From NCBI RefSeq assembly GCF_000764655.1, contig NZ_JRGL01000101.1:1-64000 (forward strand): 64,000 bases of DNA, in the 5' to 3' direction. This DNA comes from Aeromonas aquatica (lineage in GTDB: Bacteria; Pseudomonadota; Gammaproteobacteria; Enterobacterales; Aeromonadaceae). A program made the position numbers and the translations under genes. Shown one piece after another: positions 3,838-34,515 of the stretch (position 1 is its first letter; each line of letters opens with the position of its first letter). Below the pieces are notes generated by a model. That model did not search any database. It saw only the letters and a list, made by a program, of their open reading frames with translations, and was not told the DNA's origin.

Positions 3838-3873
3838 TCACTTGCCTGCGATGTTCAGGCCACCGAAGCGGCT
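3838..3873 (-). repeat. Extra copy of the pmbA 3' end
   Basis: Read on the minus strand this encodes SRFGGLNIAGK followed by TGA. The real PmbA ends IRFGGLSIAGK and TGA at 3914, so the two stops are 76 bp apart. The copy is diverged at the DNA level but keeps the reading frame and stop. It is not part of an expressed gene as far as can be seen. Confidence 0.7.
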
Positions 3874-3913
3874 CTGCGCCGACGCGTCGCGACCCTCCTC
3901 ATCCTGGGCGTAG

Positions 3914-5254
3914 TCATTTGCCGGCGATGCTCAAACCACCGAAACGGATGAGGGGGGCATAGAAGCCCTTGCCATCGTCGTGGTGCAGTTGGTCGCCGAC
4001 CGCTTCCAGCTCCCCCAGCAGGCGGTAGAAGTTGCCCGCCACCGTGATGCCGCGCACCGGTTGAACGCGCACGCCATCACGGCACAGGAAGCCGGATGCC
4101 CCGAACGAGAAGTCACCGCTCACCGCATCGGCGCCCGAGTGCAGACCATCGAGCTTGACCAGCTCCAGATACTCGCCGCTCTTGACCTCGGCTTCCGAGT
4201 GAGGGCCTGTGCCAAACACCAGGTGGCGGGCCGTCACATCCAGCGCGCCGCGGGCACTGCGGGCCGCCGAGCCATTGCTGGCGATGCCGAAGTGGTGGGC
4301 GGTGGCGCTGTTGTGCAGCAGGCTCTTCAGCTCCCCCTCGCCGATCAGCAGCAGATCCCGGGTGGGGGCGCCTTCACCGTCGAACCCCTTGATGTTCATG
4401 CCACCCGGCATATAGGTCCGGCTCTCCAGGCTGAGCCAGCGGGAGGCAACCTGCTGCCCCAGCTTGTCCCGCCAGGGGTTGATCCCCTGCTGGGCCCATT
4501 TGCCGGAGAGCGCCGCCTGGAAGCAGCCGAACAGGCTGGCCAGCGCGTTGGGGGTGAAGATCGCGCCGTAGCGACCACTTGGCACCGCCTCACCGGCCAG
4601 CAGGGCATGGGCCACTGCGTGGATCTGCGTGATGAGACTCTGGCTGTCCAGCTCGTCGAAGCGGCGGACATATTGTCCCTGGGAGTGCATGGACTGGCGG
4701 CCATCGCGGGAGATCAGGGCCGAGCTGTAGCAGCCGACGCTGAACTCCTGATGCTGGCAGAGGGTGCCCCGGCTGTTGGCGAGCCAGAGCCGGCTCTCTC
4801 CCTCGAAGAAGCTGTTGTAGGGGGCGCCGGTCACATCGGGCTGCGCCAGCATGTCCGCCTCGAGGCGCAGGGCGAGGGCGATCTTCTCCTCCACCGGGGT
4901 GCCGTCAGGCTGATTGATCTCGGCGCAGTCGGTGCTGATCTGGCTGTCCTCGACCCGAATGGCCTGATCCGCATCCAGCTTGGCGAAGCGGCTGGCGTCA
5001 CAGGCATCCTGCAGCATGGCGGCCAGGGCCGCCTCGTCCAGCGACTCCGAGTAGGCGATGCCGACTCGGCCCTCCTTGATCAGGCGAATGCCGATCTGCT
5101 GGCTGCTGGTGACCTTGTATTCGGCGAGTTCGCCCTTGTCGGCCTTGAGGGAGAAGGCCTTGTCCCGATTGGCGATAAGATCCGCCTCGGCACCGAGATC
5201 GGCGACCTGGTTGAGCAGACGGCTCAGCAATGCATTCATATCGAGTTGGCTCAT
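3914..5254 (-). CDS. pmbA: Metalloprotease-partner protein PmbA (TldE)
   Basis: A 446-residue PmbA/TldE, the usual length. With TldD it forms a heterodimeric protease that degrades unfolded peptides and, in other bacteria, matures microcin B17 and inactivates CcdA. PmbA lacks the metal-binding HExxxH of TldD, and none is seen here. The start ATG at 5252-5254 overlaps by one base (TGATG) the stop of a duplicated tldD end just upstream, which probably preserves the original tldD-pmbA junction. It is the second gene of the leftward tldD-pmbA unit. Confidence 0.93.
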   Translation of the reverse strand: MSQLDMNALLSRLLNQVADLGAEADLIANRDKAFSLKADKGELAEYKVTSSQQIGIRLIKEGRVGIAYSESLDEAALAAMLQDACDASRFAKLDADQAIRVEDSQISTDCAEINQPDGTPVEEKIALALRLEADMLAQPDVTGAPYNSFFEGESRLWLANSRGTLCQHQEFSVGCYSSALISRDGRQSMHSQGQYVRRFDELDSQSLITQIHAVAHALLAGEAVPSGRYGAIFTPNALASLFGCFQAALSGKWAQQGINPWRDKLGQQVASRWLSLESRTYMPGGMNIKGFDGEGAPTRDLLLIGEGELKSLLHNSATAHHFGIASNGSAARSARGALDVTARHLVFGTGPHSEAEVKSGEYLELVKLDGLHSGADAVSGDFSFGASGFLCRDGVRVQPVRGITVAGNFYRLLGELEAVGDQLHHDDGKGFYAPLIRFGGLSIAGK

Positions 5255-5532
5255 CAGGCATTCCCCCCCACGAGGATGTTGTCTACCTTGAGTGGCGGCT
5301 GGCCGACCGAGGCCGGGATGGAAACTGAGCCCGGCAGGTTGTCAATTATGCTCATCAGACGTTCCCCCCACGAGGATGTTGTCTACCTTGAGCGGCGGCT
5401 GGCCGACCGAGGCCGGGATGGAAACTGAGCCCGGCAGGTTGTCAATTATGCTCATCAGACGTTCCCCCCCACGAGGATGTTGTCTACCTTGAGCGGCGGC
5501 TGGCCGACCGAGGTGGGCACTGAGCCCGAGAC
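5254..5532 (-). repeat. Three tandem copies of the tldD 3' end at the tldD/pmbA junction
   Basis: Units of about 100 bp have stops at 5455 (the real tldD), 5355 and 5254. Each contains the codons for VGQPPLKVDNILVGG. In the two extra copies the segment is preceded by ATGAGCATAATTGAC, which resembles the pmbA start (MSII versus MSQL), giving mini-ORFs at 5342-5455 (37 aa) and 5254-5355 (33 aa). The second mini-ORF stop overlaps the pmbA ATG exactly as the tldD stop overlaps the first mini-ORF ATG. This is a tandem triplication of the segment spanning the gene boundary. Confidence 0.9.
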
Positions 5533-6855
5533 AGAGCCGCACATGCCGGCGGCCAGCGCGAGATCGCGGCCCACCATGGAGATCTCCTTGAGCACCTGTG
5601 GTCCGGTGCCGATCAGGGTTGCCGATTTGAGCGGTTTGGTGATCTTGCCGCCCTCGATGAGGTAGGCCTCCTGCACGTTGAAGTTGAACTCGCCGGTACC
5701 CGGCTGCACCGAGCCGCCCCCCATCTTCCTGGCGTAGATGCCGTGCTCCACCGTGGCCAGCATCTCATCGAGCGAATGGTTGCCCGGCTCGATAAAGGTG
5801 TTGCGCATGCGCGAGGCGGGGGCGAAGCGATAGGATTCGCGCCGGCCCGAGCCGGTGCGGGCATGGCCGGTCTTCAGCGCTCCCATGCGGTCCACCAGGA
5901 AGCCGGTCAGCACCCCATCCTTGATGAGCTGGGTGTGCTGGGTCGCCATGCCTTCGTCGTCGACGTTGATAGAGCCCCAGGCGTTGGCCTGCAGGCCTTC
6001 GTCCACCGCGCTGACCGCCGGGTTGGCAATCAGCTCCCCCATCTTGTCGTGGAACACCGAGGCTTTCTTCGCCACCGAGGTGGTTTCCAGCAGATGGCCG
6101 CAGGCCTCGTGGAAGATGACGCCGCCAAAGCCACTCTCCATGATGACCGGCAAGTTGCCGCTCGGGCAGGGGGCCGCGCCGAGTTTCACCAGCGCCTGGC
6201 GGGTGGCGGTGAGGGCGAGCTCCCGGGGATCGATGAGGGCCGCATGCTCCCAGCCCATCAGGGCCCCGGGGGCCTCGTAGCCCATGCTCTGCTCGCTGCC
6301 GTTCTGGGCTATGGTCTGGGCCATGATGCGGTTGTAGTGGCGGCGGTCGCTGACCATGAGCCCTTCGCTGTTGAAGATCTCCACCTCCTGCTCCCAGCCC
6401 AGCGCATTGGCGGAGAACTGGCTCACCTTGGCGCTCTCGGTGCGGGCTGCGGTGTCCATGGCGTACAGGTAGGCAATCTTCTGCTCCAGCTGCTTGTCCG
6501 CCGATAACGGCAGCGCCACCGGGTTTTGGTCGGTGAAGCGGATGAAATCGAAGGCGGTGGCGGTCACCACGGGGTCACGCCTGTCCTTGGCCGCCAGCAG
6601 GCTGACGATGCGCAGCAGCTCGTCGCGATCCGCCAGATTGGTGTAGCCATACAGCACCTTGTGGCCGTAGCACAGCCGCACGCCTATGCCGAAATCGAGG
6701 CCGCCGCTGATATTTTCGATCTGGCTGGAGAGCAGGCTGAGCTGGCTGCGACGCTTGCGTTCCACGAACAGCTCGGCGAAGTCGGCGCCAAGCTGCAGCG
6801 CGTGATCGAGCACATCGCGGGCAATGGTGGGGGTCAGCAGGGAGAATGGGGTCAT
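5455..6855 (-). CDS. tldD: Metalloprotease TldD
   Basis: A 466-residue TldD. The zinc-binding motif HEACGH is at residues 249-254, in the sequence GVIFHEACGHLLETTS. TldD is the catalytic subunit of the cytoplasmic TldD-TldE(PmbA) peptidase. The ATG at 6853-6855 matches the family N-terminus (MTPFSLLTPT), and an upstream extension has no family resemblance. The C-terminus (VDNILVGGNV) is repeated twice in the spacer before pmbA, so the present 3' end may not be the ancestral one, but the protein reads intact. Confidence 0.94.
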   Translation of the reverse strand: MTPFSLLTPTIARDVLDHALQLGADFAELFVERKRRSQLSLLSSQIENISGGLDFGIGVRLCYGHKVLYGYTNLADRDELLRIVSLLAAKDRRDPVVTATAFDFIRFTDQNPVALPLSADKQLEQKIAYLYAMDTAARTESAKVSQFSANALGWEQEVEIFNSEGLMVSDRRHYNRIMAQTIAQNGSEQSMGYEAPGALMGWEHAALIDPRELALTATRQALVKLGAAPCPSGNLPVIMESGFGGVIFHEACGHLLETTSVAKKASVFHDKMGELIANPAVSAVDEGLQANAWGSINVDDEGMATQHTQLIKDGVLTGFLVDRMGALKTGHARTGSGRRESYRFAPASRMRNTFIEPGNHSLDEMLATVEHGIYARKMGGGSVQPGTGEFNFNVQEAYLIEGGKITKPLKSATLIGTGPQVLKEISMVGRDLALAAGMCGSVSGSVPTSVGQPPLKVDNILVGGNV

Positions 6856-7039
6856 AGCATATCCTTTTCTGGTCTGAGCCTGTTCAGGGCCGCCCCCGGC
6901 GCCGAGGGGGACTGGGGACGGTTTCATTGTTACAGACCTGTGCAAAAAAGTCGTCATGGCATCATGCGATGATACCGATTGGGGCAATCGGCTCGAGATC
7001 TGCACCCGAGCTGCCGGCGCTGCTGGCCGTCAGCCAGGA

Positions 7040-7345
7040 TCAGAGCAGTTCGTGGATCTCGCTCAGGATTTGGTCAACCCACTGCTCGATGCGGGGCTCG
7101 GTCTGGTCGGCACATTGGCTGGCATCGTCGAGCAGGCACGATCACAACAGTTCGTGGATCTCGCCGAGGATCTGGTCAACCCACTGCTCGATGCGGGGCT
7201 CGGTCTGGTCGGCACATTGGCTGGCATCGTCGAGCAGGCACGATCAGAGCAGCTCGTGGATCTCACCGAGGATTTGGTCAACCCACTGCTCGATGCGGGG
7301 CTCGGTCTGGTCGTACTGGTTGGCATCGTCGAGGGCCAGGCCGAC
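7040..7345 (-). repeat. Three tandem copies of the fldB 3' end, period exactly 102 bp
   Basis: The stops are at 7244 (the real fldB), 7142 and 7040, exactly 102 bp (34 codons) apart, so all units share one frame across the stops. Each encodes [14 protein letters not shown] followed by G/S-EIHELL and TGA. The two downstream copies read DDASQCADQTEP where fldB reads [11 protein letters not shown]. They are more alike to each other than to the gene. Stops and frame are intact in all three. Confidence 0.92.
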
Positions 7346-7762
7346 GAAGTGACGGCCATCGTCGATCAGCGCCTTGGAGGCGTCGAACTCGTAGCCTTCG
7401 TTCGGCCAGTAGCCCACCAGCTTGACGCCTTTTGGCACCAGCTGATCGTGCAGCAGGCCGAGGGCGTCCTGATACCATTCGCCATAGCCCAGCTGATCAC
7501 CCATGCCAAACAGGGCGATGATGCGTCCTTCCAGATGGAGATCGGCGATGTCCTCCCAGCGGGATTCCCAGTCTTCTTGCAGCTCGCCGAAGTCCCAGGT
7601 GGAGATGCCCAGGATCAGGATGTCGTACTCCTGCATGCGGACGAGGGGCACATCCTTGATGTTGTGGAGATCGACCAGCTCGGGGCCGATGAGGGCGCGG
7701 ATCTTCTCGGCGGCCATCTCGGTGTAACAGGTGGTAGAGCCGTAAAACAAACCAATCTTCAT
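7244..7762 (-). CDS. fldB: Flavodoxin FldB
   Basis: A 172-residue long-chain flavodoxin. The FMN phosphate loop is seen at the N-terminus ([16 protein letters not shown]), followed by the isoalloxazine loops around [16 protein letters not shown] and [17 protein letters not shown]. Flavodoxins carry single electrons to Fe-S and radical enzymes. The location beside and divergent from xerD matches fldB of E. coli, which is why fldB rather than fldA is preferred. The start was chosen at MKIGLFYG. Two extra copies of its last 30 or so codons follow the stop. Confidence 0.9.
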
Positions 7763-7996
7763 CTCGCTGTCCTTACCGTAAAACAGAGCCATCTCGTGTC
7801 ATCCCCTGTTTTTTGCGGCAAACAGGGCATACTGGCTTCTTAAGACACGCCGGGGTGAGCATGGCGGGCCAGGTGGAGGGGCGCCAGTCTAACAGATTGC
7901 GATTCGCCCTTCACCGGGCAAGGGGTCAGAGGCCATCACTTGCCGTGCCTCGGGACCACGCTACAATGGCGCACCCTTTGTCGAAGACTCAAGCCC

Positions 7997-8908
7997 ATGA
8001 CCAAGCCCGCTCCCGCCCAGCACAACCATCCCCTGATCGAGCCCTTCCTCGATGCACTCTGGCTGGAGCGTGGCCTGTCTGACAACACGGTCAGCTCCTA
8101 TCGCACCGATCTGGAGAAGTTTGCGCTCTGGCTCGATGAGCAGGGCAGCTCCTTGCTGCTGGTGGGGATGGACGAGATCCAGCACTACCTCGCCTGGCGG
8201 GTGGACAAGCAGTTTGCCGCGAGCTCCACGGCCCGCTTCCTGTCGGCCCTGCGCCGCTTCTATCAATATCTGAATCGGGAAAAATTGCGCGGCGACGACC
8301 CGACAGTGTTGCTGGAGGGCCCCAAGCTGCCCAAGAAGTTGCCCGCCGACTTGAGCGAGGCCGAGGTGGAGGCGCTGCTGGGGGCACCGTTGGTGGACGA
8401 TCCGCTGGAGCTGCGGGACAGGGCCATGCTGGAGCTGCTCTACGCCACCGGGTTGCGGGTCTCCGAGCTGGTGGGGCTCACCGCCGAGCACGTCAGCCTG
8501 CGCCAGGGGCTGGTGCGGGTGGTGGGCAAGGGCAACAAGGAGCGACTGGTGCCCATGGGGGAGGAGGCCGTCCATTGGCTGGAGCGCTACTACCGGGAGG
8601 GACGTACCCTGCTGCTCGGCGGCACCAGCTCGGACGTCGTCTTTCCCTCCAAGCAGGCCAGGATGATGACCCGCCAGACCTTCTGGCATCGGATCAAGCT
8701 CTATGCCATGCGCGCCGGGATCAGGGGGGAGCTCTCCCCCCACACCCTGCGCCACGCCTTTGCCACCCATCTGCTCAACCACGGCGCCGATCTGCGGGTG
8801 GTGCAGATGCTGCTGGGTCACGCGGATCTCTCCACCACCCAGATCTACACCCATGTGGCGAACGAGCGCCTCAAGACACTGCACGGCGAGCACCATCCGA
8901 GGGCCTGA
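7997..8908 (+). CDS. xerD: Tyrosine recombinase XerD
   Basis: A 303-residue XerD. All catalytic residues are visible: Arg154 (TGLRVSELVG), Lys178 (VVGKGNKER), His249 and Arg252 (HTLRHAFATHLL), His275 (LLGHADLSTTQIY) and the nucleophile Tyr284. With XerC it resolves chromosome dimers at dif under FtsK control. The start ATG at 7997 gives the normal N-terminus; upstream in-frame codons are not family-like. The order fldB, xerD, dsbC, recJ is the enterobacterial one, here with mscL inserted on the opposite strand. Confidence 0.95.
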   Translation: MTKPAPAQHNHPLIEPFLDALWLERGLSDNTVSSYRTDLEKFALWLDEQGSSLLLVGMDEIQHYLAWRVDKQFAASSTARFLSALRRFYQYLNREKLRGDDPTVLLEGPKLPKKLPADLSEAEVEALLGAPLVDDPLELRDRAMLELLYATGLRVSELVGLTAEHVSLRQGLVRVVGKGNKERLVPMGEEAVHWLERYYREGRTLLLGGTSSDVVFPSKQARMMTRQTFWHRIKLYAMRAGIRGELSPHTLRHAFATHLLNHGADLRVVQMLLGHADLSTTQIYTHVANERLKTLHGEHHPRA

Positions 8909-8958
8909 ATGCCTGCCCCTGACGAAAGCTGTCGTGCTTCGCCTGGAGCTTTCGCCCA

Positions 8959-8987
8959 TAAAAAAACCGCCTGGTGGCGGTTTTTTT
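8959..8987. terminator. Bidirectional terminator between xerD and mscL
   Basis: AAAAAACCGCC, loop TGGT, GGCGGTTTTTTT. The A- and T-runs on both sides let it end both convergent genes. Confidence 0.88.
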
Positions 8988-9011
8988 GCAAGTGCCGGGC
9001 AGGCCGCGAGC

Positions 9012-9422
9012 TTATTTGCCCTGCTGGGATTTCAGCAGATCGCGGATCTCGCTCAGCAGTTCCTGATCCTTGGTGGGACCGGCCGGGGCAGGGGCTTCCT
9101 CTTCCTGCTTCTTCTGCAGGGTGTTGACGGCCTTGAGCCCCATGAAGATGGCAAAGGCGATGATCAGGAAGTCGATGACGGTCTGGATGAATTTGCCGTA
9201 GGCGATGACCACGGCGGGCACCTCGCCTTCGGCGGCCTTCAGGGTCACGGCGAGATCGCTGAAGTCCACGCCGCCCAGGATGAGGCCGATGGGCGGCATG
9301 ATGACGTCACCTACGAAGGAGGAGACTATCTTGCCGAAGGCGGCACCTATGATGATACCGACCGCCATGTCGATGACGTTGCCTCTGGCCGCAAAGGCCT
9401 TGAACTCTTTAATCAGACTCAT
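9012..9422 (-). CDS. mscL: Large-conductance mechanosensitive channel MscL
   Basis: A 136-residue MscL, the same length as in E. coli. It has the N-terminal amphipathic helix and TM1 ([20 protein letters not shown], then [13 protein letters not shown]), a periplasmic loop, TM2 ([20 protein letters not shown]) and the C-terminal helix ending [10 protein letters not shown]. The homopentamer in the inner membrane opens under membrane tension during hypo-osmotic shock. The start at MSLIKEF was chosen over one four codons upstream by family length. Confidence 0.96.
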
Positions 9423-9682
9423 GTTCCCCTCCAAAAATGGGTTCTGAGCGGCCGCTACCGCTCCTTTGATTTGAATAATAAAGCATCAGGAAAACAGAGG
9501 GATGCCCTTGCTGTTGCCTGTTGTCCTGATTAGCTTGCTGGGCCTCGGCCCAATTGGCAACCTGCTGGAATGGGAATTTTTTGCATTCGCCACTATTAAT
9601 CAGTCTGTAATTTATGAGTTGGGCCACCAATGTCACTGGTTTACCGTATGAAACCTCTCGTTCATACCAAGTGAGTGAAATA

Positions 9683-10399
9683 GTGCACTATTTACTGCTG
9701 GGAATGATGCTGTTGTGCGCCTTTGCCGCCAACGCGGGGATGGATCCTCAACAATTGAAACAGACCATAGCCCAGCGTCTCGGCGTGCGGGTCTTCCTGA
9801 TCGACGAGACCCCGGTGCCTGGCCTCTTCCTGCTGGGCACGTCTCAGGGGCTGATCTACAGCGATGCCAGGGGCGACTATGTGCTGCAGGGCTCCATGCT
9901 GGATCTGGGTCACGGCATGAAAAATCTCACCATGCTGGACCAGCAACGCCAGCGCCGGCTGGCCCTGGCCCAGATCGGCGAGCAGCGGATGCAGCTCAAG
10001 GCTCCGCACGAGCGTCATCATCTCACCCTGTTTACCGAACTGGGTTGCCGCAACTGCCGGGCCACGCTGGATGAGTTGCCCATGCTGCAGGCGAGGGGGG
10101 TCAGTGTGCAGTTACTGCCGGTGCTCGGCCGCTTCGCCGATCTGGCCGATGCGCAGGCGCTCTGGTGCGATCCTGCGCTTCTGGGTGAACTCAGTCTCAG
10201 TGATCGTTTGCCTGCGGCCGGATGTAATGAGATCCTTGCCCATCATATCGGCCTGAGCCAGTGGCTCGGGATCAAGGCGTCACCGAGCTGGGTCCTGCCA
10301 AACGGGGATCTGGTGCGCGGTTACCAGCGCCCTGAACAACTGCTCAAGCTACTGGATCATATCGATGCCCCTGCAAATCCGTCGTCGTCCGCGAGTTGA
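9683..10399 (+). CDS. dsbC: DsbC-like thiol:disulfide isomerase with a CRNC active site
   Basis: A periplasmic protein of about 238 residues in the position of dsbC between xerD and recJ. The GTG at 9683 gives a signal peptide ending AANA; ATG 9614 and GTG 9671 are alternatives. An N-terminal dimerisation domain (about 20-100) precedes a thioredoxin fold whose active site is Cys122-Arg-Asn-Cys125, not the CGYC of DsbC. The cis-Pro loop reads ASPSWVL, and a second Cys pair (WCDP...AAGC) matches the structural disulfide of DsbC. Its 3' end overlaps recJ by 35 bp. The role as isomerase is inferred from fold and synteny, since the CxxC dipeptide sets redox potential. Confidence 0.75.
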   Translation: MHYLLLGMMLLCAFAANAGMDPQQLKQTIAQRLGVRVFLIDETPVPGLFLLGTSQGLIYSDARGDYVLQGSMLDLGHGMKNLTMLDQQRQRRLALAQIGEQRMQLKAPHERHHLTLFTELGCRNCRATLDELPMLQARGVSVQLLPVLGRFADLADAQALWCDPALLGELSLSDRLPAAGCNEILAHHIGLSQWLGIKASPSWVLPNGDLVRGYQRPEQLLKLLDHIDAPANPSSSAS

Positions 10400-12095: not shown

Positions 12096-12126
12096 TATCC
12101 GCACCTCTGTCTACGTCGCTCAAGCC

Positions 12127-12155
12127 AACGGCCACCCTCGGGTGGCCGTTTTGTT
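12127..12155 (+). terminator. Rho-independent terminator after recJ
   Basis: AACGGCCACC, loop CTCG, GGTGGCCGTT, then TTGTT. The 10-bp stem begins 30 bp past the recJ stop. Confidence 0.82.
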
Positions 12156-12217
12156 ATGGGAAATGGGACGGGGGAGTTGACCCGTCTATGGCTTCACAGT
12201 TTAAGCTCTCTTTCATA

Positions 12218-12234
12218 GGGTCGACTGACGACCC
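12218..12234 (+). promoter_or_regulatory. Inverted repeat upstream of the MerR gene (candidate operator)
   Basis: GGGTCG-ACTGA-CGACCC is a perfect 6+6 inverted repeat about 20 bp before the MerR start codon. MerR-family regulators bind dyads in their own promoter spacers, so this is a plausible autoregulatory site. No matching -35/-10 pair was firmly identified. Confidence 0.4.
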
Positions 12235-12252
12235 GCACCAAGAGTGGTTGCC

Positions 12253-13434: not shown

Positions 13435-13476
13435 ACATCTCATCGAATGAACAGAGAGCCAACAGAGAAAAACAAC

Positions 13477-13980: not shown

Positions 13981-13990
13981 GAAGCAGGAA

Positions 13991-18410: not shown

Positions 18411-18436
18411 CCTTTATCACTATTTTATGCTGTGGC

Positions 18437-25381: not shown

Positions 25382-25388
25382 CTTTCTT

Positions 25389-25440: not shown

Positions 25441-25761
25441 GGCGCCGCCCCAGAGCTTTTCCAGTTGGTAGAAGTCGCGGTATTCATCCTGCATCACGTG
25501 GACTATGACAGATCCCATGTCCACCAGCACCCATTCACCGCTGAGCTGGCCTTCCACACTGAGCAGACTGAGCCCGGCGTGGCGTGCCTCGCTGGCCAGA
25601 TTGTGGGCGATGGCACTGACATGGCGACTGGAGTTGCCGGAGCAGACGATCATGGTGTCCGTGATGGTGGATTTGCCGCGCACATCCAGAGTGATGATAT
25701 CGCGGCCTTTCATGTCATCGATCTTGTCGACGATAAAGGCGAGTAATTCGTGGCCTTGCAA
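25423..25761 (-). CDS. rsfS: Ribosomal silencing factor RsfS
   Basis: A 112-residue Iojap-family protein that binds uL14 and blocks 30S-50S joining under nutrient limitation. Family motifs are [37 protein letters not shown] and the C-terminal [13 protein letters not shown]. The start is TTG at 25759-25761, preceded by AGGAG at a normal distance, and gives the conserved MQGHELL N-terminus. Confidence 0.95.
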
Positions 25762-25947
25762 TGTCTTCTCCTACTCTGTCCGGCGCGCTGCATAGCATCA
25801 GGGCGGCGGATTATATCATGGTCATTCCCGTTTCCCAGTCCGGCAAAGGGGAACGCATCCGGGGCTGCCTCATGGGAGGGCTAGCCCTTATTGATCACTA
25901 TAGTGCGCAACCGGACCGGACAATAGTCGCCTCGTCTCCGCTGCGCC

Positions 25948-26595
25948 TCAGGGTGTCGGCTGGTAGAGCCTGTGCTGCGCAATGTAGCCGGCCACCGAGG
26001 CCGGCAACAGATACCTGGGATCCTGTCCCGCCGCCAGCAGGGCTCTGAGCCGGGTGGCCGACAGCTCGATGGGCAGGTTGTCGCTAAGCCAGATGTACCC
26101 CTGACGATGGCGGTGCAGATCCTGAGGATATTGCGTCTGATGGCGGGCTAGCAGCTCGGCCACCTCGGTTGGGTAATCCGGTTGCCAGCCCGGGCGCAGG
26201 CTCACCACCAGATGGGCATAGTCGAGCAGTTCCCGCCAGCGATGCCAGCTCGGCAATGAGAGCAGCGAGTCCATCCCCATCAGGAAGCAGAGCGGGGTGT
26301 CCGGCAGCGCTTGCCTCAATTCGATGAGGGTATCGATGGTATAGGAGGGCGTATCTCGCCTTATCTCCCGCTCATCCACCCGAAACCCCGGGTTCTCCGC
26401 AGCCGCCAGCCTGACCATGGCCAGGCGTTGCTCGCTCGAGCAGAACGGGCTGGCTCTATGGGGGGGGATATGATTCGGGATGAGGCGGACTTCGGCCAGT
26501 CCCAGCGCGGCCCGGGCCTCGATGGCGGGACGCAGGTGGCCGATGTGGATGGGGTCGAAGGTGCCACCCAGGATCCCGATGGGGGCCTTCAACAT
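25948..26595 (-). CDS. nadD: Nicotinate-nucleotide adenylyltransferase NadD
   Basis: A 215-residue NadD that converts nicotinate mononucleotide to deamido-NAD. The nucleotidyltransferase motifs are GGTFDPIHIGHLRPA at the N-terminus and ELSATRLRALL near the C-terminus (the ISxTxxR-type motif). The ATG at 26593-26595 was chosen from the GILGGTFDP context. A second start-like copy (MLKAPI...) sits 77 bp upstream, where it overlaps the holA stop. The 186 bp to rsfS contain no gene. Confidence 0.95.
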   Translation of the reverse strand: MLKAPIGILGGTFDPIHIGHLRPAIEARAALGLAEVRLIPNHIPPHRASPFCSSEQRLAMVRLAAAENPGFRVDEREIRRDTPSYTIDTLIELRQALPDTPLCFLMGMDSLLSLPSWHRWRELLDYAHLVVSLRPGWQPDYPTEVAELLARHQTQYPQDLHRHRQGYIWLSDNLPIELSATRLRALLAAGQDPRYLLPASVAGYIAQHRLYQPTP

Positions 26596-26672
26596 GCGCT
26601 TGCCCCTGTTGGCTTGGGGAGGACTCTGGGGGGGAAACTGCCCTCCTGGGTATCGATGGGGGCCTTCAGCAT
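26589..26672 (-). repeat. Mini-ORF duplicating the nadD start at the holA/nadD junction
   Basis: A 27-codon ORF begins with the same MLKAPI codons as NadD, then MLKAPIDTQEGSFPP versus MLKAPIGILGGTFDP. Its ATG overlaps the holA stop in the form ATGCTGA and its own TGA overlaps the nadD start in the form ATGTTGA, so the two junctions are alike. Its tail ends GASAC where HolA ends EPASC. This fits an old tandem duplication across the boundary, shortened and diverged. Confidence 0.75.
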
Positions 26673-27700
26673 GATGCAGGCTCCAGCAGGGGGAGTGGGG
26701 TGGCATCGCGAAAACCCAGGGCGATAGTCTGCAACATCAGCCAGGCCTGCTCGGTGTCGAAGCGGCGCTGGGCGTCGTCGAGCCGGGCCATCAGCTGCCA
26801 TAGCTGCTGTAGCTTGCCAAACGGCAGCCGGGTCAGGGCCTGTTGAATGAGCTGCTGGCGGCTCTGCCAGATGCGCAGGCGGGAGAAATGCTCCACCAGC
26901 GGTTGGCCTGCCCGGGCGGCCAGGGCCAGCTCGGTGAGCTGCTCCAGCTCGCGGCACAGGGCCCAGGCCAGCATGCCGGGCTCGGTGCCCTCGGCCCGCA
27001 GCGCCAGCAGGATGCGCTGGGCCCGGTTCACCTTGCCCTCCAGCAGGCAATCGATGAGCTGGAACGGCGTGAAGTGGGCGTGGCGAATGATGGTCTCTTG
27101 CAGATAGGCGACGCTGATGGGCTGGGGCGGCGCCAGCAGGGTCAGTTTCTCTATCTCCTGGCTCGCGGCCAGCAGGTTGCCCTCATAGGCATGACACATG
27201 AAGTTGATGGCATCCGGCATCGCCTTGAGGCCGAAGCGCTGGAAACGGGCCCCCATCCAGCGCGGAAAGAAACGGGGCTCGGGGTGATTGACCGGCACAT
27301 AGGTGCCAATCTGCCCGAGCTTGTCGAACCAGGCCGCCTTCATCTGGGTTTGATTGAGGCGCGTACCCGAGAGCACCAGCAGCAGGTCGGGATGCAGCTG
27401 TTTGCCGATTTCCGTGATGCGGGTGGCGAGATCCTTGTCGACCTTGGCGGGCAGTTCCAGCTCGATGATCTGGCGGGCCGAGAACAGGCTCATGGCCTGG
27501 CAGGCATCGTAGACCTGGTTCCAGTCCAGCCCGGCGTCGACCACGAAGCTGTGGCGCTCATCGAAGCCTTGTTTGCTGGCCAGCTGACGAATGGCGTCGA
27601 TGGCCTCCAGTTTGAGCAGCGGCTCGTCACCGAAGATCAGATAGCAGGGCTTGAGCCCTGCCTTGAGATGGTCCGCAAACTGCTCGGGATAGACTCTCAT
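26666..27700 (-). CDS. holA: DNA polymerase III subunit delta HolA
   Basis: A 344-residue delta subunit of the clamp loader, which opens the beta clamp. The N-terminus MRVYPEQFADHLKAGLKPCY and the beta-binding region YDACQAMSLFSARQIIELEL, followed by LLVLSGTRLNQTQMK, match the family. The start at 27698-27700 follows family alignment. The first 30 codons are repeated 160 bp upstream as part of a junction duplication with lptE. Confidence 0.94.
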   Translation of the reverse strand: MRVYPEQFADHLKAGLKPCYLIFGDEPLLKLEAIDAIRQLASKQGFDERHSFVVDAGLDWNQVYDACQAMSLFSARQIIELELPAKVDKDLATRITEIGKQLHPDLLLVLSGTRLNQTQMKAAWFDKLGQIGTYVPVNHPEPRFFPRWMGARFQRFGLKAMPDAINFMCHAYEGNLLAASQEIEKLTLLAPPQPISVAYLQETIIRHAHFTPFQLIDCLLEGKVNRAQRILLALRAEGTEPGMLAWALCRELEQLTELALAARAGQPLVEHFSRLRIWQSRQQLIQQALTRLPFGKLQQLWQLMARLDDAQRRFDTEQAWLMLQTIALGFRDATPLPLLEPASC

Positions 27701-27713
27701 CGAGATACTCGCA

Positions 27714-27895
27714 TCAGAACTTGACCTGGCTGGGTTGATGGATTGCAAGGCCGCTGGCCAGCCCTGGCATCTTGAGCAGCGGCTCGTCACCGAAGATCAG
27801 ATAGCAGGGCTTGAGCCCTGCCTTGAGATGGTCCGCAAACTGCTCGGGATGGACTCTCATCAAGATACTCGCATCAGAACTTGACCTGGCTGAGC
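27714..27895 (-). repeat. 160-bp-period tandem duplication of the lptE/holA junction
   Basis: The sequences around 27611-27735 and 27771-27895 are nearly identical. They cover the end of lptE (SQVKF and TGA), the 13-bp spacer and the first 30 codons of holA. The copy next to lptE forms a 48-codon mini-ORF (27714-27860) that begins MRVHPEQFADHLKAGLKP like HolA and ends PSQVKF like LptE. Its stop stands in the same position relative to the holA ATG as the lptE stop does to the mini-ORF ATG. This is the least diverged example and shows the mechanism plainly. Confidence 0.93.
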
Positions 27896-28356
27896 TGACG
27901 GATCACCAGGCTCGCGGCCTGTTCCTGCATCTCCTTGCCGAGCTGCTCCTGCTCGCGGGAGGAGGCGAGGGCCGCATCCGGCTTGTTCAGGAAGCTACGG
28001 TTGAAGGTGATGGGGAAGACCTGAGTCGGCTTGCCCGGCATGCTGATGCTGAACTGGGTGCTGTAGCCCAGCAGGTACTCACGTTCCTGGCCGATGGCGT
28101 CGACGGAGGCAACCTGACTGCTGCTGCTGATGCCCGCCAGGGTCATCACCGGAATGCCCTCCTTGTCGGCCAGGCTCACCCCGGCAGCCTTGAGACGAGT
28201 GGTCACCATGCGATAGAAATCGCTCTTGTTGTCACCGACCACCTTCATGGTCATCAGCTCGGGGGGGATGGCGGTTCCCCGCATCTGAAAACCGCAGGCC
28301 TGCAGCAGCAGGCCCGTCAGCATGATGGCAATCCAGCGAGTAAGGGGCATGCCCAT
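27874..28356 (-). CDS. lptE: LPS assembly lipoprotein LptE
   Basis: A 160-residue outer-membrane lipoprotein. The lipobox LLLQAC puts the lipidated Cys at residue 21, followed by GFQMRGTAIPPEL, the conserved LptE start. It plugs the LptD barrel and is needed for LPS insertion. The start at 28354-28356 has AGAGGA six bases upstream; ATG 28350 is two codons later. It is separated from leuS by an intrinsic terminator-like hairpin, so only part of leuS transcription may reach it. Confidence 0.93.
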   Translation of the reverse strand: MGMPLTRWIAIMLTGLLLQACGFQMRGTAIPPELMTMKVVGDNKSDFYRMVTTRLKAAGVSLADKEGIPVMTLAGISSSSQVASVDAIGQEREYLLGYSTQFSISMPGKPTQVFPITFNRSFLNKPDAALASSREQEQLGKEMQEQAASLVIRQLSQVKF

Positions 28357-28379
28357 GTGAATTCCTCTTTGAATGATTT

Positions 28380-28406
28380 AAAAGACGGCGGGCCAGGCCC
28401 GCCGTC
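28380..28406 (-). terminator. Intrinsic terminator between leuS and lptE
   Basis: On the minus strand GACGGCGGGCC-T-GGCCCGCCGTC is followed by TTTT. It lies about 30 bp after the leuS stop and 25 bp before the lptE start, inside a block usually co-transcribed. It probably lets leuS be expressed above the downstream genes. Confidence 0.75.
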
Positions 28407-28435
28407 GTCATCGTTGGCGAGTGTCCGTTGCGGGA

Positions 28436-31015
28436 TCAGTTTGCAACGATGTTGAGCAATTTGCCCGGCACGTAGACCACCTTGCGCACTGTCAGGCCGT
28501 CGGTGAACTTCTGCACCGAGGCATCGTTCATGGCCAGCTTCTCGACCTCGGCCTGGCTTATTTCGGCCGGCACTGTCAGCTTGCCGCGCATCTTGCCGTT
28601 GATCTGTACCACCACCAGCTTTTCGGTCTCGACCATGGCGCTCTCGTCGGCCACCGGCCAGCCGGCCACGTCGATGTCCCCTTCCTTGCCCAGCATCTTC
28701 CACAGCTCGAAGCCGATGTGCGGGGTGATGGGGTAGAGCATGACCAGCACGGCTTCCAGCGCTTCCTGCATCAGGGCGCGGTCCTGCTCGCCGGTATCCA
28801 GCTTGGAGAGATTGTTCATCAGCTCCATGATGGCGGCGATGGCGGTGTTGAAGGTCTGGCGACGACCCACGTCATCGCTCACCTTGGCGATGGTCTTGTG
28901 CAGCTCGCGGCGAACGGCCTTCTGCTCGTTGCTGAGGGCGGCCAGGTTCAGTGCGGGGGCGGCACCTGCACTGACGTGCTCGAAGGTCAGACGCCACAGG
29001 CGACGCAGGAAGCGCTGGGCCCCCTCGACGCCGGAATCGGACCACTCCAGGGTCATGTCGGCCGGGGAGGCGAACATCATGAACAGACGCACGGTATCGG
29101 CGCCGTAACGCTCCACCATCAGCTGGGGATCGATGCCGTTGTTCTTGGACTTGGACATCTTGGTCATGCCGGAGTGGATCACCTCGCGGCCTTCATTATC
29201 CACCGCCTTGGTGATGCGACCCTTGTCGTCCCGCTCCACCTTGACCTCGGTCGGGCTGACCCAGACGTTGCCGCCCTTCTCGTCCTTGTAGTAGAAGGCG
29301 TCGGCCAGCACCATGCCCTGGCAGAGCAGGCGCTTGAACGGCTCGTCGCTGTTGACCAGGCCGGCGTCACGCAGCAGCTTGTGGAAGAAGCGGGCGTACA
29401 GCAGGTGCATACAGGCGTGCTCGATGCCGCCGATGTACTGATCCACCGGCAGCCAGTGGTTGGCGGCCGCGGGATCCAGCATGCCCTTGTCGTAGTCCGG
29501 GGAGCAGTAGCGGGCGTAGTACCAGGAGGACTCCATAAAGGTGTCGAAGGTATCGGTCTCGCGGAAGGCTTCCTGGCCGTTATAGGTGGTCTTGGCCCAG
29601 GCGGCATCGGCCTTGATCGGGCTCTGGATGCCGTCCATCACCACGTCTTCCGGCAGCAGCACCGGCAGTTGCTCTTCTGGGGTCGGTACCACTGTGCCGT
29701 CGGCCAGGGTCAACATCGGGATGGGGGCGCCCCAGTAGCGCTGACGGGAGACACCCCAGTCACGCAGGCGGAAGTTGACGGTGCGCTTGCCCTTGCCCTC
29801 GGCCTCCAGCTTGGCGGCGATGGCATCGAAGGCGGCCTGGAACTCGAGGCCGTCGAACTCGCCGGAGTTGAACAGCACACCCTTGTCGGTGTAGGCGGCG
29901 GCAACAACGTCCGGTACCTCACCCTCGGCGGGCTTGATGACGGCCTTGATCTCGAGGCCGTACTTGGTGGCGAACTCGTGATCGCGCAGGTCGTGGCCGG
30001 GCACCGCCATCACGGCGCCGGTGCCGTAGTTCATCAGCACGAAGTTGGCGACCCAGACCGGCACCTTGCGGCCATCCAGCGGGTGAATGGCATAGAGGCC
30101 GGTGGCCATGCCCTTCTTCTCCATGGTGGCGAGCTCGGCTTCGGCGACCTTGGTGTTCTTGCACTCTTCGATAAAGGCGGCAAGCGCCGGATTGTTTTCG
30201 GCGGCTTGCTGGGCCAAGGGGTGACCGGCGGCGATGCCCACATAGGTCACGCCCATGAAGGTGTCCGGACGGGTGGTGTAGACCTCCAGATGCTCGTCCT
30301 GGCCCTCGACCCGGAAGCTGATGTTGACCCCTTCGGAGCGGCCGATCCAGTTGCGCTGCATGGTCTTGACCATGTCCGGCCAACCGTCCAGGTTGTCGAT
30401 ATCGTTCAACAACTCCTCGGCATAGTCGGTGATCTTGATAAACCACTGAGGGATCTCTTTTTGCTCCACCGGGGTGTCACAGCGCCAGCAGCAGTTGTCG
30501 ATCACCTGCTCGTTGGCCAGCACCGTCATGTCATTCGGGCACCAGTTGACGGAGGAGGTCTTCTTGTAAACCAGACCCTTCTCATACAGCTTGGTGAAGA
30601 ACCACTGCTCCCAGCGGTAGTAGTCAGGCTTGCAGGTGGCCAGCTCCCGGTCCCAGTCATAGCCAAGCCCCAGCATCTTGAGCTGGTTCTTCATGTATTC
30701 GATGTTTTCGTAGGTCCAGGGGGCCGGCGCAGTGGCGTTCTTGATGGCGGCATTTTCTGCCGGCAGACCGAACGCATCCCAGCCGATGGGTTGCAGCACA
30801 TTCTTGCCATTGAGCCGTTGATAACGGGAGATCACATCACCTATGGTGTAGTTACGCACGTGCCCCATGTGTAGACGACCAGACGGATAAGGGAACATGG
30901 ACAGGCAGTAGAACTTCTCCTTGTCTACTTTCTCCACGGCCTTGAAGGTTTTCTTGGCATCCCAGTGCTGTTGCACTGCTGGTTCTATGGATTGGGGAAC
31001 GTATTGCTCTTGCAT
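28436..31015 (-). CDS. leuS: Leucyl-tRNA synthetase LeuS
   Basis: An 859-residue class Ia synthetase, against 860 in E. coli. HIGH appears as LHMGHVRNY and KMSKS as MSKSKNNG. The CP1 editing domain lies between (for example [18 protein letters not shown], the conserved editing-site region). The start at 31013-31015 ([11 protein letters not shown]) follows the family. It begins the long leftward block and diverges from ybeL. Confidence 0.97.
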
Positions 31016-31160
31016 TGGTGACATCCGGATCTGTGAAATGAATAGATAAATCAGCTGGGAAATCCCGATAGAATACCCATATCCTGCGGCGGCAACAACC
31101 GCCAGCATCCGCCGGGTCTCGGGCCGGCCATGATCAGCGAGTAGCAGAGGAGTAACGGCC

Positions 31161-31643
31161 ATGGACAAACGTCGACAAGGGTATGAAGCCTTCATCGCCC
31201 AGCTCAAGAAGCACTGGGAGGAGACGGAAGAGTTTCAGGGAGAGCGTCTCAACCGCATGATCGCCAAGGTGCAGGCGTACCTTGAAGCGGCCGGTGACCT
31301 GACCCAGGACGAACTGGCACTGATCGCCGAATACGTGAAACGGGATCTCGGCAACTATGACGAGGGACGGGCCGAGGCGCCGGAATCGGCCTTTATGCTG
31401 GCATTGAAAGATACAGTGTGGTCCTGGCTGGCGGACGTAACCGACCGCGCCCAGGTGGAGTGGAGCGAGCTGGCGGACGAGCTGGAGCACAAGGGCGTTT
31501 ACCGGGCTGGCGACTGGGTCGGGCTCGGGGTGCTGGTGTGCGACCACTGCGAATGGCGCCATACAGTACTGCACCCGGAACAGCTCGGCACCTGCCCCGA
31601 GTGTGGTGCCAACGAGTATCACCGCGAGCCGCTCTCTCCTTGA
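31161..31643 (+). CDS. ybeL: YbeL family zinc-ribbon protein (DUF1451)
   Basis: A 160-residue cytoplasmic protein. The N-terminal half is a charged helical region ([18 protein letters not shown]). The C-terminal half carries a zinc ribbon with two Cys pairs (VCDHCEW and [10 protein letters not shown]). It matches E. coli YbeL in family and in its place divergent from leuS. AGAGGAG precedes the ATG. No biochemical function is established. Confidence 0.92.
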
Positions 31644-31666
31644 GCCGCTGGCCACGACAGCACATG

Positions 31667-31695
31667 AAAGAGGCGCCCATGGGCGCCTCTTTTTA
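31667..31695. terminator. Terminator between ybeL and lnt
   Basis: AGAGGCGCCC-AT-GGGCGCCTCT followed by TTTTTA. It ends ybeL on the plus strand and can also end lnt on the minus strand. Confidence 0.85.
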
Positions 31696-31725
31696 TCGGG
31701 TTGGGTAGCCGGTCTATGACCCCGA

Positions 31726-33303
31726 TCAGAGGGTACGAGCCCAGGGATGGGCACGGGGGCGCAGGGCTAGCCCCAGTCCCAGCAGCAGGACGGCGATGCC
31801 ATACATGGGCCAGCTGCCAAAGCGCAGGTAAGGAGTCGAGCCGTGAGCGGGGCGCACCTCGGCTCGCAGCACCCCAGCCTCGAACTGCGGAAGCTGGGCT
31901 ATGATGCTGCCGTCAATCTCGGTGACGATGGTGATGCCGGTGTTGGTGTCGCGCAGCAGCGGGCGAGCCAGTTCGAGGGCGCGCATGCGGGCGATCTCCA
32001 TGTGCTGCCAGGGGCCAATGCTGGTGCCAAACCAGGCGTCGTTGGAGACGGTCAGCAGGAAGTCGGTATCCGGCTGCACGTTGCGGCGTACCTCGTCCGG
32101 GAAGATGATCTCGTAGCAGATGGCGGCGGCGAACTTGAGCCCCTTGGCGAGCAGGTTCGGTTGCACCTCGTCACCCCGGCTGAAGGAGGACATGGGCAGG
32201 TTGAAGAAGGGCGCTATGGGGCGCAACAGATCTTCGAAGGGCACGAACTCGCCGATGGGCAGCAGGTGGTACTTGTAGTAGCGGTTCTTGTGCTCGTAGT
32301 GGTAGGACTCCTTGCCGTCCAGATCCTGCACCCCCATGCCGAGCACTGTGTTGAAGAAGCGCTGCTGCTGGAGATCGTAGTGAATGATGCCCGCCAGCAG
32401 GCCGGTGTCGTTCACCTTCATCGCCTTGTCCAGGCTCTCCAGATAGGTGCCCATCTCCTTCTCGATGGCCGGGATGGCGGATTCAGGCCAGACGATGATG
32501 TCGGCATCCTGATTCTCGCGACTCAAGTCCTGATAGGTTCGTACCGTGGGGATCAGCGCCTCCGGATCCCACTTGAGGGACTGGGCGATGTTGCCCTGCA
32601 CCAGCGCTACTTTTACCGGCTCGCCCCGGGTCACCCAGTTCAGTTGCATCAGCCCCTGGGCGGTGCCCACCAGGGCAACGGGGACCAGCAGCCAGGCCGG
32701 CTTGCGGCTCTGCCAGGTCAGCCAGAGCGCGGAGGTACACAGCAGCAGCGCCAGTGTGATGCCCTGCACCCCGAGGATGGGGGCGAAGCCCTTGAGGGGG
32801 CCGTCGATCTGGGTGTAGCCGAACCAGAGCCAGGGGTAGCCGGTCATCACCCAGCCCCGCAGCCAGTCGGCCCCGAGCCAGAGCGCCGGGAAGGCGAGCA
32901 GCCAGCGACTCCAGTGACGACCGCTGAAGAAGCGGGCGAACAGCCAGCAGGCCAGGGTCGGGTAGAGTGCGAGGTAGGCGCAGAGCCCGGCCAGCAGCAC
33001 GAAGGCGACCGGCAACGGTATGCCACCGAACTCCGTCATGCTGACATGGATCCACCACTGTCCCGGCAGGAACAGCCCCATGGCGTAACCAAAACCACGC
33101 CAGGCGGCTTGCTTGGGGTTGGCCTTGTCCAGCAGGGCGTAGAGGCCGAGCAGAGACGGGATCACCAGAGGCCAATAGCCGAAGGGGGAGAAGGCAAGTA
33201 CGGCGATGGCGCCAGAGGCCAGGGCAAACAGGCTGATCAGGGGTTTCGATTTCACTGGGGCTAGGGGCTCGATTGGACTGAATGAAAGTTGAATGGCCGA
33301 CAT
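31726..33303 (-). CDS. lnt: Apolipoprotein N-acyltransferase Lnt
   Basis: A 525-residue inner-membrane enzyme that adds the third acyl chain to lipoproteins. Six or more TM helices in the N-terminal half lead to a periplasmic nitrilase domain: the catalytic Glu in VWPESAIP, Lys in the segment before KYHLLPIGEFVPFE, and Cys in AAICYEIIFPDE. A final TM helix closes it. The start at 33301-33303 gives the usual first helix; the upstream extension includes a hairpin and is not coding. Confidence 0.95.
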   Translation of the reverse strand: MSAIQLSFSPIEPLAPVKSKPLISLFALASGAIAVLAFSPFGYWPLVIPSLLGLYALLDKANPKQAAWRGFGYAMGLFLPGQWWIHVSMTEFGGIPLPVAFVLLAGLCAYLALYPTLACWLFARFFSGRHWSRWLLAFPALWLGADWLRGWVMTGYPWLWFGYTQIDGPLKGFAPILGVQGITLALLLCTSALWLTWQSRKPAWLLVPVALVGTAQGLMQLNWVTRGEPVKVALVQGNIAQSLKWDPEALIPTVRTYQDLSRENQDADIIVWPESAIPAIEKEMGTYLESLDKAMKVNDTGLLAGIIHYDLQQQRFFNTVLGMGVQDLDGKESYHYEHKNRYYKYHLLPIGEFVPFEDLLRPIAPFFNLPMSSFSRGDEVQPNLLAKGLKFAAAICYEIIFPDEVRRNVQPDTDFLLTVSNDAWFGTSIGPWQHMEIARMRALELARPLLRDTNTGITIVTEIDGSIIAQLPQFEAGVLRAEVRPAHGSTPYLRFGSWPMYGIAVLLLGLGLALRPRAHPWARTL

Positions 33304-33393
33304 CTTAACCGCAAACCGCGCCAACGGCGAGCCTCCCGATTTGGCACTGAATCCTGAGGGAATATGGAGGGGATGGTCTGGGTCAGAATGACA

Positions 33394-33416
33394 AACGCCC
33401 CTCAAGAGGGGCGTTG
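33394..33416 (-). terminator. Hairpin between corC and lnt
   Basis: On the minus strand AACGCCCCT-CTTG-AGGGGCGTT followed by TGT. The stem is strong but the T-run is short, so it is a possible partial terminator between corC and lnt. Confidence 0.55.
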
Positions 33417-33442
33417 ATAGACAGGACAAAAGCGGGGCGGGA

Positions 33443-34324
33443 TCAGGACTCCGGCTGGGCTGCCGCGTGATTCTCCGGGATCTTCACCTGCAGCTGTTGC
33501 AGGCGGCGTCTGTCTGCGTGCATCACCTTGAACAGGTAGCCGTCGAGCTCGATCTCCTCGCCCTTCTTCGGCAGGTGGCTGAAGGCGTGCATCACCAGGC
33601 CGCCGACGGTGTCCACCTCTTCATCGCTGAACTGGGTGCCGAAGAAGTCGTTGAAATCCTCGATCTCGGTGAGGGCGCTGACCGAGAAGACCCGCTTGCT
33701 GATGCGGCGGATCTCTTCCGGCTCGTCCTCGATGTCGTCGAACTCGTCATCGATCTCGCCGACGATGAGCTCCAGTATGTCCTCGATGGTCACCAGACCG
33801 GAGACGCCGCCGAACTCGTCCACCACGATGGCCATGTGGTAGCGCTCCTCGCGGAACTCCTTGAGCAGACGATCGACCCGCTTGCTTTCCGGCACTATCA
33901 CGGTCGGGCGCAGGATCTGCTCGAGCTGCAGCGGCTCGCTGGCGTGGTGGCCACCGAAGCCGAATGGCAGCAGATCCTTGGCGAGCAGAATGCCTTCCAC
34001 GTGATCCTTGTCTTCGTTGATCACCGGGAAGCGGGAGTGGCCGGATTCGATGATGACCGGCAGGAACTCGTCCACCGGTTGGGACTTCTCGATGGTTACC
34101 ATCTGGGAGCGGGGGATCATGATGTCGCGCACACGCAGCTCGGCAATTTCGAGCACGCCCTCGATCATGTCCTTGGTGTCCTGATCGATGAGGTCTCGCT
34201 CCTCGGCGTCGGCTATCACTTCCACCAAATCGTTGCGGTCTTTTGGCTCGCCCTGGAAGAGTTGGCTGAGTTTGTTTAGCCAGGTTTTCTTCGGCGAGCC
34301 GGTACTAGGGTGATCGTCGGTCAT
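33443..34324 (-). CDS. corC: CorC/HlyC family CBS-domain protein
   Basis: A 293-residue soluble member of the CorC (YbeX) group. The N-terminal segment (EERDLIDQDTKDMIEGVLEI) leads to two CBS domains (RDIMIPRSQMVTIEKSQPVD; VVDEFGGVSGLVTIEDILE) and the CorC_HlyC C-terminal domain. It has been linked to CorA-mediated Mg/Co efflux and more recently to ribosome and RNA metabolism, in keeping with its place beside ybeY and ybeZ. Its N-terminus lacks TM helices. Confidence 0.93.
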   Translation of the reverse strand: MTDDHPSTGSPKKTWLNKLSQLFQGEPKDRNDLVEVIADAEERDLIDQDTKDMIEGVLEIAELRVRDIMIPRSQMVTIEKSQPVDEFLPVIIESGHSRFPVINEDKDHVEGILLAKDLLPFGFGGHHASEPLQLEQILRPTVIVPESKRVDRLLKEFREERYHMAIVVDEFGGVSGLVTIEDILELIVGEIDDEFDDIEDEPEEIRRISKRVFSVSALTEIEDFNDFFGTQFSDEEVDTVGGLVMHAFSHLPKKGEEIELDGYLFKVMHADRRRLQQLQVKIPENHAAAQPES

Positions 34325-34423
34325 TTTCTCTCTTGGTTACTCGTTTGAACACATAGGGATTCTGGTCTGGCTATATAAGGATGATCGCAGTCTGTTTCAG
34401 TCAGGTGACCATCCCGGGTGCCT

Positions 34424-34515
34424 TTATGCTTCGACTTCGTCGTCGAGATAGGGATCTGCAAAGCCTAGCTCCTGCATGATGTCGCGTTCTGGAACTGCAC
34501 CATCTCATCGGCTTC
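34424..34515 (-). repeat. Diverged extra copy of the ybeY 3' end
   Basis: On the minus strand this reads [21 protein letters not shown] and TAA, against [20 protein letters not shown] and TAA for YbeY. The stops are 104 bp apart and similarity extends about 90 bp. Near the upstream edge (CAGTTCCAGAACGCG against CAGCTGGAACGCG) a small indel breaks the frame, so this copy is decaying. Confidence 0.85.

Follow-up and report, generated by a model that had tools for sequence, protein, structure and literature searches.

Tandem duplications of gene junctions and open chains of mini-ORFs at overlapping gene boundaries in Aeromonas

In the window analyzed here, the first 64 kb of contig C4 in a draft assembly of Aeromonas aquatica (171 contigs, 4.58 Mb), tandem copies of gene ends stand between intact core genes such as tldD and pmbA or lptE and holA. 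This arrangement raises the question of why such copies settle at gene boundaries, and what becomes of two overlapping genes once a copy has moved them apart. We find that the duplications cross gene boundaries far more often than random placement predicts, that they are enriched in samples of Aeromonas genomes, and that, where the neighboring genes overlap, the inserted DNA nearly always forms an unbroken chain of mini-open reading frames (mini-ORFs) leading from one gene to the next. We think it likely, though well short of certain, that these are old junction duplications whose copies turn over, that some have been transferred between species, and that the relay chains are kept by selection for translational coupling.

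Copies were detected with Tandem Repeats Finder (TRF) and an ungapped lag scan (score at least 24, lag 50–300), and they lie head to tail at a constant period, as tandem duplication predicts. A first-pass annotation of this DNA had listed seven duplicated gene ends. Those at tldD/pmbA, fldB, lptE/holA, and ybeY are strong, with a measured period of 101 at ybeY in place of the proposed 104, while those at pmbA, holA/nadD, and lipB/lipA are weaker and are backed by relatives. The pmbA-end copy was found too in four other Aeromonas loci at lag 75–82, and the scan places positions 26550–26596 at holA/nadD again at 26627–26673 (period 77, 77% identity over 47 bp). The lipB/lipA copy of the window falls below the lag-scan threshold, and its junction was confirmed by comparison with relatives instead.

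The copies avoid gene interiors. Across 541 kb of this genome, the scan returned 30 loci at true lags and 1 at shifted lags; 3 of the 30 lie inside genes, compared with 19.2 expected from random placement. A HolA search supplied 29 further Aeromonas loci with flanks of up to 10 kb (27 named species, one further strain, and one metagenome-assembled genome; 601 kb), where 38 scan matches, harmonics included, fell in 21 loci and none appeared at lags 2000–2480; here 1 of 25 loci was gene-internal versus 17.2 expected. These results bear out the proposal that a duplication crossing a boundary spares both genes. Gene calls in unannotated stretches came from a simple codon-usage script, so that starts are approximate, and loci overlapping ARAGORN tRNA matches were removed before counting (2 in this genome; 1 each in G068, G092, G022, and E. 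coli; 3 in G048). One locus of this genome removed in this way, C24:110875, had been picked for comparison across the genus, in which an 87-bp part of its unit recurs nearly unchanged in many genomes. After masking, this genome retains 24 gene-end loci, 3 loci inside genes, and 1 classed as intergenic, the last being tldD/pmbA, which therefore stands outside the 24. The window is not a special cluster, because 21 of these 24 loci fall in the 477 kb outside it.

Measured on samples of each genome, gene-end loci number 24 in 541 kb of this genome (44 per Mb), 13 in 800 kb of six other Aeromonas genomes (16 per Mb), and 1 in 980 kb of eight control genomes (1 per Mb). Among the single-contig Aeromonas assemblies, G057 has 10 in 400 kb, and G068, G072, G073, G091, and G092, sampled over 80 kb each, have 1, 1, 0, 1, and 0. 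The controls gave none in G022 of the same family (100 kb), G042 (120 kb), G013 (100 kb), G026 (80 kb), G009 (120 kb), G056 (120 kb), or E. coli K-12 (200 kb), and one in G048 (140 kb), both copies of which lie mostly within coding sequence. The feature thus recurs across Aeromonas and is not uniform in rate, since rates differ clearly among the sampled members of the genus. The first-pass annotation had made its reading depend on an excess over E. coli and other genera, and in these samples the excess is there. Gene-internal tandem loci were counted in this genome (3), G057 (4), G091 (1), and the controls G022, G042, and G026 (1 each), and intergenic ones in G057 (1), G091 (2), G092 (1), and the control G026 (3). 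A 36-bp-period repeat was also seen within one called gene on contig C26 of G000 (about 30657–31206).

The same boundaries are affected in species after species. Matches in the 21 of 29 HolA loci recur at lptE/holA, rodA/mltB, ybeY/corC, leuS/lptE, and miaB/phoH. For tldD, 36 Aeromonas genomes were searched and the best 30 of 36 matches kept, a set that lacks the most divergent Aeromonas; in it, tldD and pmbA overlap directly as TGATG without an insert in 24 of 30 and are separated by an insert in 6 of 30, and copies downstream of fldB occur in 10. The fldB lags (63, 98, 102, 129, 130, 133, 165, and others) follow no frame rule, and the genes at that boundary do not overlap. Of two more boundaries, picked from this genome for high identity, one has copies in 3 and the other in 4 of 30 loci, counts that include this genome. 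Copy number also varies among relatives: ybeY reaches four copies, resident included, in A. rivipollensis, and both the long lptE/holA units and rodA/mltB range from 0 to 2 extra. At tldD/pmbA of L159 (G040), a run of Ns is flanked by sequence resembling the 59-bp insert type and is probably an unresolved array.

To describe what lies between separated genes, we defined a chain as a series of steps of −8 to +3 nt (−9 to +3 for mrdA/rodA) from the upstream stop to the downstream start, or an in-frame fusion. Gaps shorter than 12 nt were not scored as inserts, which excludes holA/nadD of A. popoffii (+2), and tldD/pmbA of G040 was excluded for its N run. At the six boundaries whose genes overlap (by 1, 4, 7, or 8 nt), the chain is intact or fused in 69 of 72 inserts. 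The clearest case is lptE/holA, where the genes share a one-base overlap in six insert-free species, including A. simiae, A. diversa, and Aeromonas sp. RU39B, and are separated by 13–313 nt in 24 of 30 sequences, with the chain unbroken in all 24. These chains comprise one to four mini-ORFs of 4–53 aa, nearly all joined by TGATG. The chain is likewise kept at rodA/mltB (5/5, two as in-frame fusions to MltB), holA/nadD (13/13, six as fusions), mrdA/rodA (6/6), lipB/lipA (17/19), and tldD/pmbA (4/5). The type of overlap is specific to each boundary, and it is mostly the native one (−1, −4, −7, or −8) that is repeated along the chain. As had been predicted from the window, the mini-ORFs start like the downstream gene and end like the upstream gene with the stop/start overlap reproduced; the second lptE/holA mini-ORF, for example, joins a HolA-like start to an LptE-like end. 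Also at lptE/holA, 17 of 30 sequences (L012–L040 and the window) contain, once or twice, a 14-bp unit with an ORF of four codons (MRVS or similar).

At non-overlapping boundaries, by contrast, gaps with or without copies contain a chain in 16 of 97 cases: 14 of 68 gaps of 12–450 nt at ybeY/corC, leuS/lptE, and miaB/phoH, and 2 of 29 gaps of up to 700 nt at fldB/tldD. Shuffling the insert interiors at fixed length leads one to expect about 25 of the first 66 chains (sum of per-boundary means), and in simulated neutral decay of six inserts at 10–25% divergence, the chain survives in 2–46% of trials. The difference between 69 of 72 and 16 of 97 is comparative evidence for selection on translational coupling, and it favors the earlier suggestion that mini-ORFs may relay translation, for boundaries whose genes overlapped originally. 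The arrays and mini-ORFs of the window are collected in Table 1.

Table 1. Tandem copies and mini-ORFs at gene boundaries of the 64-kb window.
Feature	Position	Strand	Remarks
tldD/pmbA tandem array: resident tldD end and two extra copies before pmbA	5249..5513	-	period 100/101, 95–100% identity (TRF, lag scan)
tldD/pmbA first mini-ORF	5342..5455	-	overruns next start by 14 nt; chain scored broken
tldD/pmbA second mini-ORF, 33 aa	5254..5355	-	stop overlaps pmbA ATG (TGATG)
fldB 3'-end array, two extra copies downstream of resident stop	7031..7333	-	period 102, 93% identity; boundary not overlapping
lptE/holA tandem duplication	27612..27932	-	period 160, 89% identity
lptE/holA chain mini-ORF 1 (MRVS)	27860..27874	-	starts within lptE stop (TGATG)
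lptE/holA chain mini-ORF 2, 48 aa	27714..27860	-	HolA-like beginning, LptE-like end
lptE/holA chain mini-ORF 3, 5 aa	27697..27714	-	4-nt overlap with holA ATG
ybeY 3'-end extra copy	34420..34489	-	resident copy 34521–34590, lag 101, 86% identity; boundary not overlapping
pmbA 3'-end decayed copy	3836..3871	-	resident copy 3912–3947, lag 76, 83% over 36 bp
holA/nadD mini-ORF, 27 aa	26589..26672	-	−7 overlap reproduced at both ends
lipB/lipA mini-ORF, 30 aa	17051..17143	-	ATGA (−4) overlap at each end; end matches lipB end of insert-free species

Within the tldD/pmbA array (window 5342–5513), the middle copy has one base fewer in the G run of the tldD end. This difference breaks the relay frame and could reflect either a slippage site or an error in sequencing.

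The age of the copies was approached through their internal divergence. Breakpoint homology was assessed for 12 hand-picked arrays of this genome, five of which match over the whole unit and are not scorable. In four of the seven scorable arrays, the breakpoint segments are diverged copies of the gene (67–76% identity, z 3.4–4.8) beside cores of 85–97% identity. Similar junctions also appear in distant species: at rodA/mltB, some 20 bases directly following the stop are by eye nearly alike in A. lusitana, A. rivipollensis, A. bivalvium, A. lacus, and A. molluscorum although the mltB start differs, and derived bases are common to five sequences at ybeY and to four near C4:65827. The spread from near-identical to decayed copies had been taken as a sign of continuing formation; that interpretation is not supported in this form, because the breakpoint side is old and diverged in four of seven arrays while the cores are not, and because similar junctions occur in distant species. 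In our reading, the duplications are old, change in copy number, and have in part spread horizontally; they do not reflect steady new formation. The idea that copies act as donors for gene conversion is compatible with cores that have remained close to the resident gene end. At rodA, four of six copies (from five species) match the resident end of their own genome better than that of any other species, and two do not, with some margins of one base in 100. The resident rodA end of A. lacus is nearer other clades while its displaced copy is nearer its own clade, a sequence pattern that suggests transfer between species. In the few junctions compared by eye, we found no convincing motif common to different boundaries; one candidate for breakpoint microhomology, TGAACA near C4:124457, was noted by eye.

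Taken together, these observations can be accommodated by a single sequence of events. Gene junctions would have been duplicated in tandem, mostly with periods of 60–165 bp and many of them long ago. Such duplications survive because a copy containing the stop, or the stop and the next start, leaves both genes whole, whereas a gene-internal one is lost. Recombination inside the well-matched core would then let arrays grow and shrink and keep the core near the resident end as the breakpoint side diverges, since the gene would be harmed by crossovers on the diverged side. Homologous recombination appears to have carried some arrays from one species to another. Where genes overlap, an insert becomes a mini-ORF linked at both ends because each duplicated junction brings its own overlapping stop and start. 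An untranslated insert would probably weaken coupling, and an open relay need not. According to PMC10666635, a 38-nt gap lowered reinitiation by 80–100% in three gene pairs of E. coli, and 15 nt at the end of the upstream gene were enough for coupling. Selection for termination-reinitiation coupling of the downstream gene may thus purge variants that break the chain, leaving one to four relay mini-ORFs open or fused in frame.

Several observations weigh against this account. Three chains are broken, namely the window's own tldD/pmbA and lipB/lipA of A. popoffii and A. sobria. Five of the six holA/nadD fusions (L025, L026, and L029–L031) lack a start codon at the aligned NadD start and may be simple in-frame differences in NadD N-terminus length; without these five, the total is 64 of 67. 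The Fisher value of 1e-27 for the chain contrast overstates the case because the species share ancestry and are not independent, and perhaps 10–20 independent lineages underlie the chain counts by our estimate. Substitutions in the long mini-ORFs show mild third-position bias only, and peptide-level conservation of the mini-ORFs, which we tried, was set aside on a weak third-position excess. A gap need not be fatal to coupling, because synthetic operons cited in the available portion of PMC10666635 remained coupled across 73 nt and 150–850 nt. In three of the seven scorable arrays, the breakpoint segment has no clear resemblance to a diverged copy. The signature of a foreign end, looked at in rodA only, is clear in one of five array-bearing species (A. 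lacus), suggestive in A. rivipollensis, opposite in A. molluscorum, and uninformative in two. Finally, five single-contig Aeromonas genomes together give just 3 gene-end loci in 400 kb, a large variation in rate within the genus.

At lipB/lipA, 29 sequences were compared (28 relatives and the window); a gap of 79–98 nt occurs in 19 and a direct −4 overlap in 10. The ten gapless sequences have an A-rich lipB end (GC 0.40) that continues into the start of lipA. In the 19 gapped ones, the A-rich stretch adjoins lipA with a mean identity of 0.90 to native ends, whereas the resident lipB end encodes a similar peptide with different codons and has 0.60 identity. It seems that the duplication parted the protein-end role from the start-signal role at this boundary. 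We tried such a subfunctionalized boundary as a general rule and rejected it: the distal copy is nearer the native end in 19 of 19 cases at lipB/lipA but in 0 of 15 at lptE/holA, 3 of 5 at rodA/mltB, and 3 of 6 at mrdA/rodA, and six tldD/pmbA inserts show no difference (identity to native 0.83 resident, 0.80 distal). Role separation is therefore not general, since lptE/holA is opposite and other boundaries are mixed.

The alternative that survives best, although we judge it unlikely, is that foreign gene ends were inserted by transformation: recombination in the gene body and an illegitimate join downstream would place a foreign 3' end ahead of the native one, so that the copies differ from birth. 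The A. lacus rodA pattern is what this predicts. The native-like lipB end, distal in all 19 insert-bearing sequences, agrees as well but is equally explained by recoding after duplication, and the fldB arrays of G078 and G082, in which the distal copy of one is the end sequence of the other's resident gene, could equally result from array contraction. At lptE/holA the prediction fails: in 15 of 15 cases the likeness to insert-free species lies with the resident end rather than with the distal copy.

We regard a purely neutral origin as somewhat less probable still. Tandem duplications would owe their location to purifying selection on the genes, and mini-ORFs would be open since copies are young or freshly homogenized. 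Purifying selection of this kind is sufficient for the boundary bias, many arrays lie at non-overlapping boundaries without a frame rule, and several cores are more than 90% identical. Youth does not, however, account for four 101-nt lptE/holA inserts that are 69–87% identical to their template and all open, or for an A. rivipollensis insert that has by eye changed frame and still ends at the holA overlap; the difference in chain frequency between overlapping boundaries and gaps elsewhere is likewise hard to reconcile with neutrality. Mobile-element scars or attachment-site duplications targeting gene 3' ends would fit the involvement of the 3' end in 20 of the 24 gene-end loci of this genome, but we consider them very improbable: wherever junctions were read, one copy directly abuts the next without an intervening element, fully sequenced inserts at overlapping boundaries reach 314 nt at most, units span stop and start codons, and periods vary freely at one gene. 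An assembly or sequencing artefact, conceivable for a window from a 171-contig draft and for the relative with an N run at tldD/pmbA, is rejected with near certainty because the single-contig assemblies G057, G068, G072, and G091 carry gene-end arrays, and many copies differ by 5–30%.

The duplications may also supply new protein ends, as the first-pass annotation anticipated in proposing alternative termini. In A. bivalvium (L028), one of the ten gapless lipB/lipA sequences, LipB apparently runs on in frame through a former mini-ORF. At rodA/mltB of A. lusitana (L013) and A. molluscorum (L037), a 135-bp insert lies in frame with mltB and would extend the MltB N-terminus from the duplicated start. 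In L025, L026, and L029–L031, nadD apparently has an in-frame upstream extension, beginning at a GTG in a 7-nt overlap with the holA stop.

If old junction duplications are indeed retained by coupling, overlapping genes have been moved apart apparently without being uncoupled, and Aeromonas offers gene pairs that carry anywhere from 0 to 4 relay ORFs, a natural series in which reinitiation could be measured. Bacterial operons may also gain short ORFs and new protein ends from such arrays, and annotators of Aeromonas genomes should not write off gene-end repeats and tiny ORFs as errors. A bolder proposal, which we put forward only tentatively and hold to be rather doubtful, is that duplicated overlap junctions act as relay cistrons that are kept and passed between species, setting the ratio of the coupled genes and freeing the upstream end from start-signal duty. 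On this view the mini-ORFs would be translated and would evolve as short peptides, some of them turning now and then into new protein ends.

Termination-reinitiation, tandem duplication, and concerted evolution are each already known. Short tandem duplications and variable-number tandem repeat (VNTR) arrays under concerted evolution consist of head-to-tail units that differ in copy number and whose cores stay alike, and the Aeromonas arrays share all three properties. They differ in that their units are junctions of core-operon genes, are nearly confined to boundaries, and have similar junctions in distant species. Homology-facilitated illegitimate recombination in transformable bacteria could set a second, divergent gene end beside the first, but at lptE/holA the foreign and native ends do not stand in the order that it predicts. 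Searches of the open-access literature gave no account of gene overlaps that are duplicated and retained as relay mini-ORFs, nor of their frequency in Aeromonas. Studies on the origin of unidirectional overlapping genes (PMC4161906, PMC3887535) address how such overlaps arise and change, and one of them, in its available portion, treats the loss and replacement of start and stop codons rather than duplication of the overlap. The closest parallel is with translationally coupled overlapping pairs, in which termination-reinitiation occurs at ATGA or TGATG; as described in the available portions of PMC6728339 and PMC10666635, these have the same stop/start overlaps, the same kind of gene pair, and a preference for overlap or a very short gap. 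That spacing of overlap or a few nt is maintained throughout the chain, or gives way to an in-frame fusion, in 69 of the 72 inserts at the six boundaries. To such pairs, for which coupling in Aeromonas is suggested by sequence, the genus adds one to four overlapping mini-ORFs derived from the neighbors' own ends.

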